Shown: one piece after another, positions 202-19,296 of the stretch
How positions within the stretch are numbered: the first letter of the stretch is position 1
Layout of the letters: every line of letters starts with the position of its first letter
NCBI RefSeq assembly: GCF_016757735.1
Contig: NZ_CP068439.1
Location: forward strand, 2,878,001 to 2,942,000
Source: Aequorivita iocasae
GTDB lineage: Bacteria > Bacteroidota > Bacteroidia > Flavobacteriales > Flavobacteriaceae
Reading direction: 5' to 3'
Length of the DNA stretch: 64,000 bases
Translations under genes and position numbers: made by a program
The notes under the pieces: model-generated
Databases searched by the model: none
The model's input: only the letters and a program-made list of their open reading frames with translations
Told to the model about the DNA's origin: nothing

Positions 202-816
202 ATGAAGTTTTTGCCTAATGTATTATTTATCTTTCTGTTCTTTGGTTTTTCTTCCAATGGGAAACTCCAGAAACCTTTGGTTAACCTCAAAGACTTTTCA
301 ACTGAATTTGTTTACGAAATACGCTATGCTACCCCCCATAATTTTATAGGCGAAGCACTTTACGACTGTGCCGAATGTTTGCTTCGCCCCGAAGTAGTAG
401 AAGCCTTATTACAAGCCAACCAATATTTTTGTGAAAAGGGTTACCGCATAAAAATCTACGATTGCTACCGCCCCTTGGACGTACAGAAAAAGATGTGGGC
501 AAAAGTGCCGCGACCAACCTATGTGGGCAATCCTTATGGCAATGGCTCCATCCACAACCGGGGTGCAGCAGTAGATATTACCCTGGAAACTCTGGAAGGT
601 TGCTATGTTGAAATGGGCAGCGATTACGATTACTTCGGAAAGGAAGCGCACATTGACAATTACAATTTTTCAAAAGAAATACTCGCCAACCGAAAGTTGC
701 TCTTTGAAGGGATGCGAAAATTTGGTTTCAGCACCATCAGAACGGAATGGTGGCATTTCAGTTACAAAAAAAATTGGAGCTACACAACGTTGAACCTTCC
801 CCTACCCTGCGAATAA
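202..816 (+). CDS. D-alanyl-D-alanine dipeptidase (VanX/DdpX-like, peptidase M15D)
   Basis: A 204-residue zinc D,D-dipeptidase that hydrolyses D-Ala-D-Ala, probably for recycling or use of cell-wall dipeptide in the periplasm. The zinc signature SxHxxGxAxD is present (H118 and D125), as is the EWWH motif with catalytic E182 and zinc ligand H185. R90 in DCYRP matches the conserved VanX arginine. A short hydrophobic N-terminus (residues 3-18) suggests export. Its length matches VanX (about 200). There is no vanH/vanA partner, so this is not a resistance cluster. A TAnnTTTG-like box lies at 190-197, only four bases before the start codon, so a short leader or leaderless transcript is possible. 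Confidence 0.88.
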   Translation: MKFLPNVLFIFLFFGFSSNGKLQKPLVNLKDFSTEFVYEIRYATPHNFIGEALYDCAECLLRPEVVEALLQANQYFCEKGYRIKIYDCYRPLDVQKKMWAKVPRPTYVGNPYGNGSIHNRGAAVDITLETLEGCYVEMGSDYDYFGKEAHIDNYNFSKEILANRKLLFEGMRKFGFSTIRTEWWHFSYKKNWSYTTLNLPLPCE

Positions 817-822
817 AATTTA

Positions 823-1743
823 TTATTTATGGGGAAGATTTTTTTCTGCATTTCCACTTATTTTAAAGGGGATTTCAGGTGTATTCTTATATAATTTTAA
901 CTCGATCACATCAGATGGTAAATTGAAATCGGCATTGGCCAATGCCTCCTTTACCTGTTTTATTATTATACCTCGCAATACACGTGACGCTCTTCTATAG
1001 TCGACAGTGTCTACCCAAAAGAATACCTTTAGGTTTACGGTACTTGCGGCAAGTTCATCTTCAATCACAAAATTTTCATGGGTTTCATCACGAATTATTT
1101 CTTTGTTATTATCCAAGACCTCCTGAATTACTCTCTTGGCAGCTTCAATATTATCTTCATAACCAATTCCAACCGTAAAATCCACACGGAAAAAACCATC
1201 GGCTGTGTAATTTTCAACAGGTTTGGTAAGCACATCGCTATTGGGAATATATATATCGCGGCCATCAAATGTTTTTATATGGGAATACCGAAAGCTTAAG
1301 GCCCTCACCTTTCCGAATATATTGTCTATTTTGATAGTATCATTAATATTAAATGGCCTATTAAATGCAAGAATCACCCCCGCCAAAAAATTTTTGCCAA
1401 TATCCTGAAAGGCAAATCCCAAAATAATGGCGCCCCCGCCCACGGCCGTTAATACTCCAGTGGCTATGCCATCAAGGCCTGCTACGCGCAAGGCAATCAT
1501 AATGGCAATTATAATTAAAATGATTTTAACCGCTTGGGCCAAAAACTTTGCCATTAGCGGATCTTCAGATTTTTGCTGGAATCGTCTTTTATAGAAATTG
1601 GTTAACAATTGGGCAAGTAACACGCCCAATATAATCACCAAAATTGCCAAGGCAATCCGCGGAAGAATCTTTAAGAATTCTTCATAATAGTTCTGTAATG
1701 AATTTTGGATTGTTTCGCTTGGCGATTGTAAAAGTGGCAGCAT
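823..1743 (-). CDS. MscS-type mechanosensitive ion channel
   Basis: A 306-residue small-conductance mechanosensitive channel of the inner membrane, which releases solutes upon hypo-osmotic shock. Three membrane segments are visible (about 27-48, 70-87 and 93-127). The third is the Gly/Ala-rich pore helix, with VGGGAIILGFAFQDIGKNF near residues 101-119. The beta domain follows (FNINDTIKIDN, then GKVRALSFRYSHIKTFDGRDIYIPN) and an alpha/beta C-terminal domain. The length is close to E. coli MscS (286). The gene is divergent from the DUF3817 gene; a second, longer MscS homologue lies about 400 bases away. Confidence 0.93.
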   Translation of the reverse strand: MLPLLQSPSETIQNSLQNYYEEFLKILPRIALAILVIILGVLLAQLLTNFYKRRFQQKSEDPLMAKFLAQAVKIILIIIAIMIALRVAGLDGIATGVLTAVGGGAIILGFAFQDIGKNFLAGVILAFNRPFNINDTIKIDNIFGKVRALSFRYSHIKTFDGRDIYIPNSDVLTKPVENYTADGFFRVDFTVGIGYEDNIEAAKRVIQEVLDNNKEIIRDETHENFVIEDELAASTVNLKVFFWVDTVDYRRASRVLRGIIIKQVKEALANADFNLPSDVIELKLYKNTPEIPFKISGNAEKNLPHK

Positions 1744-1831
1744 CTATTTTTCTTTTAAAGATAAACATTCTTGATAAATGAAGACATCAAATAAATTATT
1801 CTTAAAATTTAGTAGGGCATTGCGCAAGATG

Positions 1832-1839
1832 TATCTTTG
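1832..1839 (+). promoter_or_regulatory. possible -7 box for the DUF3817-MscS operon
   Basis: TATCTTTG fits the Bacteroidota -7 consensus TAnnTTTG. No good TTG element lies 17-19 bases upstream, so this is only moderately supported. If used, it excludes the two upstream ATG start candidates (1778 and 1829) of the next gene. Confidence 0.35.
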
Positions 1840-1855
1840 CAAGAAAATAAAAGTT

Positions 1856-2134
1856 GTGGATCTTTCAGTAAAATCATTTAAATTAATAAGCACATTAGAG
1901 GCTATCTCTTTTTTGGTTCTTTTGGGAATTGCAATGCCCCTAAAATACATTTGGCATATGCCTCAAATGGTTCAAGTAGTAGGCATGGCGCACGGAGTGC
2001 TATTTGTGCTTTACGTTGGGGGTGCTCTATATATGTATAAAAAGTTGAAATGGTCTATTACAGATTTATTTATTGTGGTAATGTGCTCCGTGTTACCTTT
2101 CGGTCCTTTTTATGTGGAACGTAAATATTTATAA
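1856..2134 (+). CDS. DUF3817 family membrane protein
   Basis: A small integral membrane protein of unknown function. The family-like part starts at FKLISTLEAISFLVLLG and continues through MPLKY, VGMAHGVLFVLYV and a final VLPFGPF segment, giving three hydrophobic stretches. The open frame extends up to an ATG at 1778 with another at 1829, but the extra residues are basic and unlike the family, and a TATCTTTG box lies at 1832-1839. I therefore prefer the GTG at 1856, with modest confidence. The stop codon directly abuts the ATG of the next MscS gene (TAAATG), so the two are translationally coupled. This pairing suggests a role linked to membrane stress, which is inference. Confidence 0.75.
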   Translation: MDLSVKSFKLISTLEAISFLVLLGIAMPLKYIWHMPQMVQVVGMAHGVLFVLYVGGALYMYKKLKWSITDLFIVVMCSVLPFGPFYVERKYL

Positions 2135-16297: not shown

Positions 16298-16834
16298 TTA
16301 AGAAAAAGCTTTGTTTTTTCCCACAATACCTTTGTAAAAGGCCCGCAATTTTAATGTGTCTTCATCTATATTACCGCTAGGATAGAAAGGTTCTCCAATG
16401 ATTACTTTCTTTGTAAGATAATCAAAAGCCACCGTAATAATGGGTACATTTGCTGCCAAAGCTATATAATAGTACCCTGTTTTCCATACTGCTACTTTTT
16501 TCCGGGTTCCTTCAGGAGATAACGCCAGGCGAAACTCATTCTTTTTTCTGAAAATTTCTGCAATAGCCTCTACTTGGTTTTGTCCCGGGTTCCTATCTAA
16601 AGGCGCACCTCCCATCCAACGGAAATACCATCCAAAGGGCCATTTGAACAATTCTTTTTTAGCGATGTAATTTATTTCAATTTTTAAAATTCTTCTGGTA
16701 AAAGCCCCAATATAGAAGTCGTGCCAACTAGTGTGCGGCACTACAATCACTACAGATTTTTTAACTGAACGATCAAAAGAACCCTCAATTTTCCATCCCA
16801 TTAATTTTTCAAAAATGAATTTTGTCAGACCCAT
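16298..16834 (-). CDS. 1-acyl-sn-glycerol-3-phosphate acyltransferase-like (PlsC family)
   Basis: A 178-residue acyltransferase of the LPLAT/PlsC family. The catalytic HxxxxD is H34-D39 (HTSWHD), the second block is FRWMGGAPLDRN near residue 72 and the third is LSPEGTRKK near 109. It lacks the N-terminal membrane anchor of E. coli PlsC (245 residues) and belongs to the short group common in Bacteroidota. It lies only 16 bases downstream of the KdsB-KdnB fusion and is probably the last gene of that operon. The context suggests a lipid or LPS assembly role, but glycerophospholipid synthesis is just as possible. Confidence 0.85.
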   Translation of the reverse strand: MGLTKFIFEKLMGWKIEGSFDRSVKKSVVIVVPHTSWHDFYIGAFTRRILKIEINYIAKKELFKWPFGWYFRWMGGAPLDRNPGQNQVEAIAEIFRKKNEFRLALSPEGTRKKVAVWKTGYYYIALAANVPIITVAFDYLTKKVIIGEPFYPSGNIDEDTLKLRAFYKGIVGKNKAFS

Positions 16835-16850
16835 TCTAATGTCGGTATTA

Positions 16851-18680
16851 TTACATTTTTAGGTATAATTCTCTAAGTTTTTCAGGGGTGATTATAGTTT
16901 CCCAATTTCTTCCCAGAGCGTTCTCCCATAACGGAACCATTCCTAGAGCAACAGTAATCATGGTATCCATCTGTTTTTTAGAAAGATCTTTACAAATTTC
17001 TTGTGGTATTTCAACATTATGTTTTTTCACCATTTCTTTAAATAGTGCAACATCTTTTGGGTAAAACTCTTCCAGATGCTGAAAAACAACGCAGTTGCCC
17101 ACGCCATGTTTTGTACCCAAAACATAGCCAAGCCCATAGCTCATCGCATGGGCAACCCCAACCTGAGAATAGGCAATACTCATGCCGCCATGCCAAGATG
17201 CCATCATAAGTTTTGCCCTTGCTTCCTCATCAGAAAGGGAATCTCCCAAGAAAATTTCCAAACAAAGATCGTAGGCCTTTTCGCCATAACTTTGGCTGAA
17301 GGCGTTTAAAAAAGTACCATTCAGGGATTCCACACAATGGATAAAGCAATCCATACCGGTATAGAACCATTGGTTTTTAGAAACCCCCTTTGTGAGTTCA
17401 GGATCAAGGATTACTTGGTCAAATGGCGTAAAATCACTGTTAATACCCAATTTACGCACAGGGCCCGTGAGTACTGTTGTTCGTGAAACTTCGGCACCAG
17501 TTCCTGAAATCGTGGGAACGCCTACATGGTAAATTGCTTTCTGCTTTACCAAATCCCAACCTTGATAATCCGCAGCACTGCCATTATTGGTAAGCATAAT
17601 GGAAACGGCTTTTGCAAGGTCCATTACTGTTCCACCGCCAATGCCAATTATTCCTGAAGGTGCATGGGTAAATTCGGTTTGTATTTTTTTTACCAGTTCA
17701 TCTACCTGTGATGTTTTGGGCTCTTCTTCTGCTGAAATGAAAATCAATTTGTCATTAAAACGAAGGTTGATTCTATCCAAAAATTCGGTATTTTTTTCAA
17801 AAACATCGTCAACTAAAAATATAAACGGTGCCTTTTCTTTTTTATGGGAAGATAAAATTGACGTAAGTTGATCAAAACAGCCTTCCCCAAAAACGACTTT
17901 TGGTACCATTGGAAAATTCCGGAACTTATTGTTAACTGCATCGGGTTTACTTTCCTTCAGTAGTTTATTTGCCCTAATTAGGTCTTCGGGAGTGTCAATT
18001 TCAACCCCTGTAGTATTTGAAACGGTCATTTTTATATTTTTTCCGTATTCCAAATAACGTATACATTCTATTTTTTCTACCGCTTCGAGGGAACGCATTG
18101 GCAAGCGATAAAAGTCCATAATGGCTTGTTTTCTGAACGCATAAATTCCTTTATGCTTATAATATTGGATTGCCACATTTTTATCGCGGGGGTATGGAAT
18201 GGGTGAACGTGAAAAATAAAGTGCGAAATTGTCTTTATCTACAATTACTTTTACGGTGTTTGGGTCATTGATTTCTTTCCAATCATGTATTTCGGACATT
18301 AATGAAGCCAAATCAATTTTGTCTGCATCGGGTTCATTGAACACTGCCAAAACTTTTTCCAAACCTTCACGGCTAGTAAAAGGTTCATCCCCTTGAACGT
18401 TTACCACAATATCCACATCCATATGTTCTACGGCTTCGGCAATACGGTCACTTCCGCAGTCGTGCTCCTTTTGGCTCATGATTGCCCTGCCACCGTTGGC
18501 TTCGATTTCTTGAAAGATCACATCGCTATCGGTAACTACATATACATCATCAAAGAGATTGGTTGCTTTTGCAGCTTCATATGTTCTAACGATTACGGGT
18601 TTACCCGCCAAATCTTGCATTAATTTTCCAGGAAATCGAGACGCACCATATCGTGCGGGAATCATTGCTATTATTTTCAA
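16851..18680 (-). CDS. KdsB-KdnB fusion: CMP-Kdo synthetase joined to iron-containing Kdo 8-oxidase-like domain
   Basis: A 609-residue single polypeptide with two enzymes. Residues 1-245 are 3-deoxy-manno-octulosonate cytidylyltransferase (KdsB): [14 protein letters not shown] at 7-20, VNVQGDEP near 93-100, HKGIYAFR near 176-183 and [10 protein letters not shown] at 225-234. Residues about 256-609 are an iron-containing alcohol dehydrogenase: [14 protein letters not shown] near 346-359, [10 protein letters not shown], and metal ligands D444, H448, H511 and H525. The second half resembles KdnB of Shewanella (wording [13 protein letters not shown]), which oxidises Kdo at C8 before amination by KdnA to 8-amino-Kdo. 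The fusion would couple C8 oxidation with CMP activation, in the cytosol. KdnA is not in the window. Fusion and fold are seen; the 8-amino-Kdo pathway is inference. Confidence 0.88.
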
Positions 18681-18717: not shown

Positions 18718-19296
18718 TTAAGTGGGTGGCAATCTTTTTTTGCGAAGCTTTTTATAGAATCGGAATATCACAAAAAACAAAAATACCACAAGTACAAAAG
18801 CCAAAATAGGTATAAATATCGAAGCAAAAGCCATAACTACAGCAATTGCTGTTTCCACTGTTGCTAATATAGGGTTAGCCGTACCAGCTGTTGTGGCGGT
18901 TGAAGTTAACCGTGCTGCGGAAGCATTTCCTTTAATTAATGCAGCCGTGCCACCTCCGGCTATAATAGCCAAAGACCACGTGACTACTGGGCTCAGATCT
19001 GCAATTGTAGCAACCATAACTGCCGTTCCGGCCAAGGTTGCCAAGGGCAATGCTATCGTATCCAGCAAATTGTCGAGCCAAGGAATATAATATCCAAATA
19101 TTTCTACGACAGTTGCAACACCCATAGTTATCATAGCTGTCAAGCTTCCCATCCATTGCCAGCTTTCATTCAAAGGGATTACTTCGCAATAGCCAGCTAA
19201 ACTCAAAACCAACAATGGTAAAAAAACACGGAAACCTACGGCAGCGGCCAAACCGATGCCCAGAAAAATACTGATGATGATATCCAAGTTTTCCAT
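18718..19296 (-). CDS. DUF4126 family membrane protein
   Basis: A 192-residue integral membrane protein. It begins with a hydrophobic segment [23 protein letters not shown] and has five to six hydrophobic stretches rich in Ala, Gly and Thr, then a basic tail ([12 protein letters not shown]). The function of the family is unknown. It follows the RecD-like helicase gene after six bases and precedes the kdsB-kdnB fusion by 37, so it belongs to one probable operon. Confidence 0.85.

Follow-up and report, generated by a model that had tools for sequence, protein, structure and literature searches.

KdnB catalyzes the metal-dependent oxidation of Kdo at C8 with O2, not NAD(P)+, and the cytidylyltransferase for 8-amino-3,8-dideoxy-manno-octulosonate (Kdo8N), KdsB of Shewanella, is classified as EC 2.7.7.90. 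In the Shewanella work of Gattis in 2013 and Zachman-Brockmeyer in 2016, the first papers on KdnA and KdnB, KdnB reportedly oxidizes C8 of Kdo, KdnA transaminates, and KdsB activates the resulting product.

Where the literature deals with Kdo8N, it is called a hallmark of Shewanella (in a passage of PMC6357163, where the C8 signal in NMR is near 44 ppm), and that text, together with sections of PMC3210612, PMC5125639, and PMC12175506, places the sugar in this genus; PMC4052302 names "other bacterial species" inside its Shewanella section, and the sugar also appears in PMC7281004 and PMC3946165. KdnB is assigned to FeADH3/cd08184 in a table of PMC5125639, and kdnB and kdnA both occur in PMC5036845. 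Beyond Shewanella, the name kdnB is already in use for a gene of Leptospira, as a table in PMC8510873 shows. Kdo is mentioned in passages on Bizionia, a flavobacterium (PMC9478572), and on Capnocytophaga (PMC3342949); for C. canimorsus, a core with a single ordinary Kdo is reported there. No report of a kdsB-kdnB fusion was found in the openly available literature, outside of which most subscription papers lie, and prior notice of it is possible.

A KdsB-KdnB fusion in Aequorivita iocasae

The DNA analyzed here ("the window") is a stretch of 64,000 nucleotides from A. iocasae (contig NZ_CP068439.1, positions 2,878,001 to 2,942,000). It contains one gene encoding both KdsB and KdnB, with the following features:

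16851 to 18680, minus strand: kdsB-kdnB fusion gene (609 aa; start codon TTG, stop codon TAA), open frame
17949 to 18680, minus strand: KdsB half, residues 1-244 (PF02348; TIGR00466, 193 bits)
17928 to 17948, minus strand: linker, approximately residues 245-251, variable among relatives (low model confidence at 243-259)
16854 to 17927, minus strand: KdnB half, residues 252-609 (443/439 bits to 3rf7/5k8c)
18000 to 18002, minus strand: codon for Glu227, which marks the KdsBs of KdnB-containing genomes
17994 to 17996, minus strand: codon for Asp229, predicted magnesium ligand of KdsB by motif, matching Aquifex D219 (passage of PMC3149649)
17349 to 17351, minus strand: codon for Asp444, KdnB metal ligand (by sequence)
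17337 to 17339, minus strand: codon for His448, KdnB metal ligand (by sequence)
17148 to 17150, minus strand: codon for His511, KdnB metal ligand (by sequence)
17106 to 17108, minus strand: codon for His525, KdnB metal ligand (by sequence)
16298 to 16834, minus strand: PlsC-type acyltransferase, next downstream gene (PF01553)
18718 to 19296, minus strand: DUF4126 protein, next upstream gene (PF13548)

The original prediction had described an uninterrupted fusion of 609 residues. Frame and coordinates held, but the strand had to be corrected to minus: the plus strand between 16851 and 18680 contains many stops, whereas the minus-strand frame is open over 609 codons. The acyltransferase gene, predicted as the next one in the operon, indeed follows 16 bp past the fusion gene on the same strand and matches PF01553. 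Upstream of the TTG at 18680, the frame stays open for 29 codons, which would yield a protein of 638 aa. At the corresponding position, the 20 fused genes found among the best 80 of at least 577 named KdnB loci carry TTG (13), ATG (2), GTG (1), TTA (2), or CTG (2); because of this variation, the exact start is uncertain in some of them. Where TTA or CTG takes the place of TTG (L123, L127, L160, and L165), the real start has to be at another position or be unusual.

The N-terminal half matched PF02348 with 168 bits in the Pfam profile search and TIGR00466 with 193.4 bits, above the curated cut-off of 155.2, which bears out its predicted assignment to KdsB. With known KdsB (TIGR00466; the E. coli enzyme and the capsule-type 1gq9), the entire half is shared, including the motifs VQGDEP and DTPEDL, by which D98 and D229 are recognized as the two conserved magnesium-type aspartates; the KdsB from Aquifex binds magnesium through the corresponding aspartates, D219 among them, according to a passage of PMC3149649. 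The second half matched PF00465 (98 bits) and PF25137 (54 bits), and its closest solved structures were 3rf7 (443 bits) and 5k8c (439 bits), with the next chain reaching 90 bits, so that KdnB is favored over butanol or other alcohol dehydrogenases. The same two structures were closest when the half was used alone as the query, and the next dehydrogenase was again distant. The predicted metal ligands D444, H448, H511, and H525 are intact at the positions originally given and occupy invariant columns across 14 aligned KdnB or KdnB-like proteins. KdnB from Shewanella oneidensis (5k8c) and its relative from S. denitrificans (3rf7) resemble the protein described here in sequence (∼55% identity along the entire half), in their ligands, and in the presence of KdnA in the genome; they differ in being stand-alone chains, whereas in A. 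iocasae, a member of the Bacteroidota, KdnB follows KdsB within one fused protein.

A structure model of the fusion derived from a 36-row alignment had a mean pLDDT of 74.8 (34 for the single-sequence model), with low confidence where the two halves meet (residues 243-259) and in some parts of the KdsB half. When this model was submitted to Foldseek, 3rf7 and then 5k8c ranked top (TMt 0.93 and 0.92), whereas the KdsB structures 1gqc and 1h6j appeared at ranks 41 and 43 with an rmsd of ∼12, which is poor.

Judged by its sequence, the fusion is a variant of the known Shewanella route in another bacterial group, with a predicted LPS product. It is very probably a bifunctional enzyme of Kdo8N synthesis; its two activities, the order of the steps, the sugar in the LPS, and a possible assembly with KdnA are inferred.

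The same genome encodes KdnA and a single KdsB

The A. iocasae genome that was searched is complete and consists of one contig of 3,353,883 bases. The fusion is its only match to PF00465 above the Pfam cut-off. A stand-alone second kdsB, the search for which had been proposed together with that for a KdnA homologue, was not found: genome-wide, no other gene passed the cut-off, the sole other match scoring 17.6 bits. A KdnA orthologue is present. DegT-type profiles matched 12 times, five of them strongly (L002-L006), and three of these five (L002, L004, and L006) were compared with solved structures. L006 matched KdnA (5k8b) with 502 bits, the next structure reaching 186, whereas other sugar aminotransferases ranked first for L002 and L004. 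With L006 as the query, no other place in the A. iocasae genome reached an E-value of 1e-50. This kdnA gene lies ∼182 kb from the fusion.

Also encoded are KdsA (381 bits; cut-off, 314), two KdsC-type phosphatases above their cut-off, and a Kdo transferase matching PF04413 with 155 bits, which falls below the stricter NCBIfam cut-offs. One of the KdsC-type phosphatases is located near the KdsB-like match of 17.6 bits (L248 and L015, G000:C1:1035078-1037333); the pair may mark a separate cluster for an acidic sugar. Taken by sequence, the interpretation of the original prediction that the fusion belongs to the Kdo8N route is supported.

The fusion is conserved, and KdnB co-occurs with KdnA

Within a set of 118 related genomes, A. 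iocasae included, the fusion is uninterrupted and free of stops in 31 (74-98% identity), namely in 28/28 Aequorivita genomes and once each in three further genera belonging to this family; in 33 more, kdsB and kdnB are separate genes. The same unbroken frame in so many relatives means that the fusion is neither a chance event nor an assembly slip. dN/dS was 0.013-0.053 in each half, a range computable for four of eight pairs per half and with dS partly near saturation, and the linker sequence is more variable than the halves. That the fusion is an artefact of sequencing or assembly, or a gene in decay, is accordingly refuted by the relatives and has practically no probability left: the frame recurs in the 31 genomes and in the 20 fused loci among the best 80 of at least 577 named ones, dN/dS is low, and nothing was found in favor of such an explanation.

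KdnA and KdnB occur together in 63 of the 118 genomes, one without the other in 2, and neither in 53 (counts read from tables by eye). Among the 64 relatives with KdnB, 63 thus have KdnA. The sole genome with KdnB but without KdnA (G302) is 69% complete, and the sole KdnA without KdnB (L227 in G392) is fragmentary, lying at the edge of a contig. In a sample of 296 genomes from the phylum, likewise counted by eye, all 15 with a listed KdnB of at least 56% identity also have KdnA (at least 467 bits); among the matches listed, the fusion occurs in A. iocasae only. Since the KdnB list for this sample reaches to about E 1e-47, weaker KdnB-like proteins were possibly missed. In the search for Shewanella kdsB, viral contigs contained no relative and plasmids no KdnB match.

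The association with KdnA also bears on whether the dehydrogenase half could act on another sugar or alcohol, with KdsB making ordinary CMP-Kdo. Distant KdnB-like proteins (43-49%) do occur in other settings, one of them near an apparent nonulosonate gene. However, identity to KdnB is ∼55% across the half, the next known dehydrogenase scores 90 bits, and KdnA accompanies KdnB in all but one of the 64 relatives, which makes another substrate highly improbable. For the Kdo8N route, the pairing of KdnA with KdnB in 63/118 genomes, the occurrence in many marine Flavobacteriaceae among the named genomes, and, in one lineage, the fusion to the sole kdsB predict that an abundant group of bacteria commonly carries Kdo8N in its LPS.

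Fused loci lack the HAD gene of the split operon

A scan of named genomes gave at least 577 KdnB loci, of which the best 80 were compared; the nearest belong to Aequorivita, and a sample drawn in this way leans toward near relatives. Of these 80, 20 are fused (L107-L123, L127, and L160 and L165 from Aquimarina) and 60 are split. A HAD gene lies between or beside kdsB and kdnB in 56 of the 60 split loci (the exceptions being L124, L128, L143, and L180) but in none of the 20 fused ones, and the best match to it in the A. iocasae genome scores 28 bits. An acyltransferase gene is found near kdnB in 71 and a DUF4126 gene in 54 of the same 80 loci, as in the window. The split operon of Zobellia, Maribacter, Winogradskyella, and other Flavobacteriaceae has kdsB, kdnB, and the acyltransferase gene in the order seen in A. 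iocasae; it differs by the HAD-type hydrolase gene between kdsB and kdnB, which the fusion does not have. kdnA is grouped with kdsB and kdnB in some relatives (L158, L180, L220, L225, and L226).

The HAD protein is of the HAD-IA type (e.g., L019:2627-3328, minus strand), and the copies in split loci among the best 80 of at least 577 are 64-100% identical to that of L019. It was considered as the KdsC of the operon, which is not supported: it stays below the specific cut-offs, resembles a HAD-IA hydrolase, and two KdsC-type genes exist elsewhere in the genome.

When both domains were placed in one tree of 83 rows, all 21 fused rows grouped with the split loci L124, L128, and L143 in a single clade of 24 rows (98, starred). 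The fused or split state requires two changes on this tree, only one of which is forced by starred branches. The junction in Aquimarina is nine residues longer than that of the Aequorivita type; separate origins of the two fusions are nevertheless not required: all fused rows fall into the one starred clade, and starred branches force a single change. In the simplest account, the HAD gene would have been lost and the two genes joined once, perhaps with a later split; that the join happened twice is also possible.

A glutamate marks KdsB in genomes with KdnB

When the KdsBs of genomes with KdnB were compared with those of genomes without a listed KdnB, the position two residues before D229 stood out. 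Residue 227 is Glu in 96/96 rows with KdnB but only in 3/57 rows without it (G 36, S 9, A 7, E 3, and P 2), the three exceptions being L190, L217, and L238. The KdsB half of the fusion carries Glu227 and Lys177, whereas the unfused KdsB from E. coli has Gly and Leu, respectively; residues 142 and 177 likewise differ between the groups. Of the 80 named loci, 78 are among the 96 rows (L130, which has no kdsB nearby, and the broken L142 are left out), and four KdsBs were excluded from both groups: L035 and L240 (distant KdnB-like protein; Gly), L227 (KdnA fragment; Glu), and that from E. coli (Gly). In L142, from Lacinutrix himadriensis, KdsB is encoded in two overlapping pieces (L142:2337-3061), which points to a frameshift or a sequencing error.

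On a thinned tree (48 of the 96 rows with KdnB and 29 of 39 without; 18 later rows without KdnB lie outside it), Glu227 and KdnB each change six times, and two independent pairs fall on starred branches. With these two pairs, a phylogenetic sign test of the association was not significant; independent events are too few for this test to reach significance. Because the neighboring aspartate matches a magnesium ligand described in part of PMC3149649, residue 227 should be near the active site, and Glu227 perhaps contacts the C8 amine. In the 36-row model, pLDDT is under 50 at residue 227 and over much of the C-terminal portion of the KdsB half, and hence no contacts were read from it. For asking how KdsB might distinguish Kdo from Kdo8N, residue 227 is an easy point of entry.

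Whether the KdsB half makes this distinction separates two readings of the fusion within the Kdo8N route. It could be an ordinary KdsB that takes Kdo and Kdo8N alike, giving a mixed core, joined neutrally to KdnB after the HAD gene was lost. That a single KdsB serves the entire genome fits such a view, as do the absence of the HAD gene from 20/20 fused loci, on which the join would follow, the three HAD-less split loci within the fused clade, and the split arrangement in most relatives with KdnB (fused and split counts again from the best 80 of at least 577 named loci). However, the fusion remains uninterrupted, at 74-98% identity, in 31 genomes, and Glu227 marks the KdsBs of KdnB-containing genomes; this reading is therefore unlikely. 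A sole CMP-Kdo synthetase committed to Kdo8N in these flavobacteria, in which Glu227, beside the catalytic aspartate, would bind the C8 ammonium and the fusion would hold oxidase and activating enzyme around KdnA, so that one assembly makes and uses the reactive 8-oxo-Kdo, is possible, although less likely than not. In that case, Kdo8N would make up the inner core sugar throughout, and no LPS at all could be made without KdnA and KdnB, which would thus do more than decorate it.

Possible use of the fusion

In the proposed sequence of events, the C-terminal KdnB half would oxidize Kdo at C8, giving 8-oxo-Kdo. This would be transaminated to Kdo8N by KdnA, a separate protein whose gene lies in another part of the genome. 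The N-terminal KdsB half would couple Kdo8N to CMP, after which WaaA would transfer the sugar to lipid A. The likeness to the Kdo8N cytidylyltransferase from Shewanella (EC 2.7.7.90) is one of proposed role, namely activation of Kdo8N. The fusion would tie together the two ends of the branch, its entry and its exit, so that each KdsB molecule is accompanied by an oxidase, and 8-oxo-Kdo would be made close to the enzyme using the end product.

It had originally been proposed that Kdo is channeled between C8 oxidation and nucleotide activation. This part of the prediction needs correction, as it skips the transamination by KdnA: in the reported order, the fusion comprises the first and the third step. 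With KdnA acting in between, direct channeling is doubtful, and because the fused steps are not consecutive, a kinetic benefit is not obvious. The 60 split loci among the best 80 of at least 577 named ones manage without the fusion. That kdnA is not adjacent to the fusion in A. iocasae counts against the proposed explanation as a whole. Most likely, although with far less certainty than the route itself, the use of the fusion would lie in a fixed stoichiometry and the closeness of oxidase and synthetase around KdnA. The fusion offers one protein on which the Kdo8N route can be tested.

Distant KdnB-like proteins

In L032, L033, L034, and L037, KdnA-like genes (40-47%) lie beside genes for KdnB-like proteins of a second kind, with 45-49% identity. 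Among the matches listed for the phylum sample, besides the 15 genomes with KdnB of at least 56% identity, four genomes pair KdnB-like proteins (45-49%) with KdnA-like ones scoring 395-420 bits. In G145 and G169 (family f17), the KdnB-like protein (44%) is accompanied by just a weak KdnA-like match of ∼240 bits, which is common in f17. G118 encodes a KdnB-like protein (45%) and no KdnA at 1e-70; its locus (L035) is a kdsB-HAD-kdnB operon with a distant KdnB (45-48%) and a KdsB carrying Gly227, perhaps a replaced or decayed route. In G145, the KdnB-like protein (43%) and a protein of 540 aa are encoded side by side (L247:2065-3177 and 376-1998, minus strand); by eye, the 540-aa protein resembles a nonulosonate cytidylyltransferase with a PseG-like portion fused to it.

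Residue 227 is C, C, C, S, and P in the KdsBs L260-L264, which stem from five genomes with a distant KdnB, and G, A, and G in the three KdsBs of G169. In a MAFFT alignment, Glu occupies the position of residue 142 in all five of L260-L264, possibly as another means of accommodating an amino sugar.
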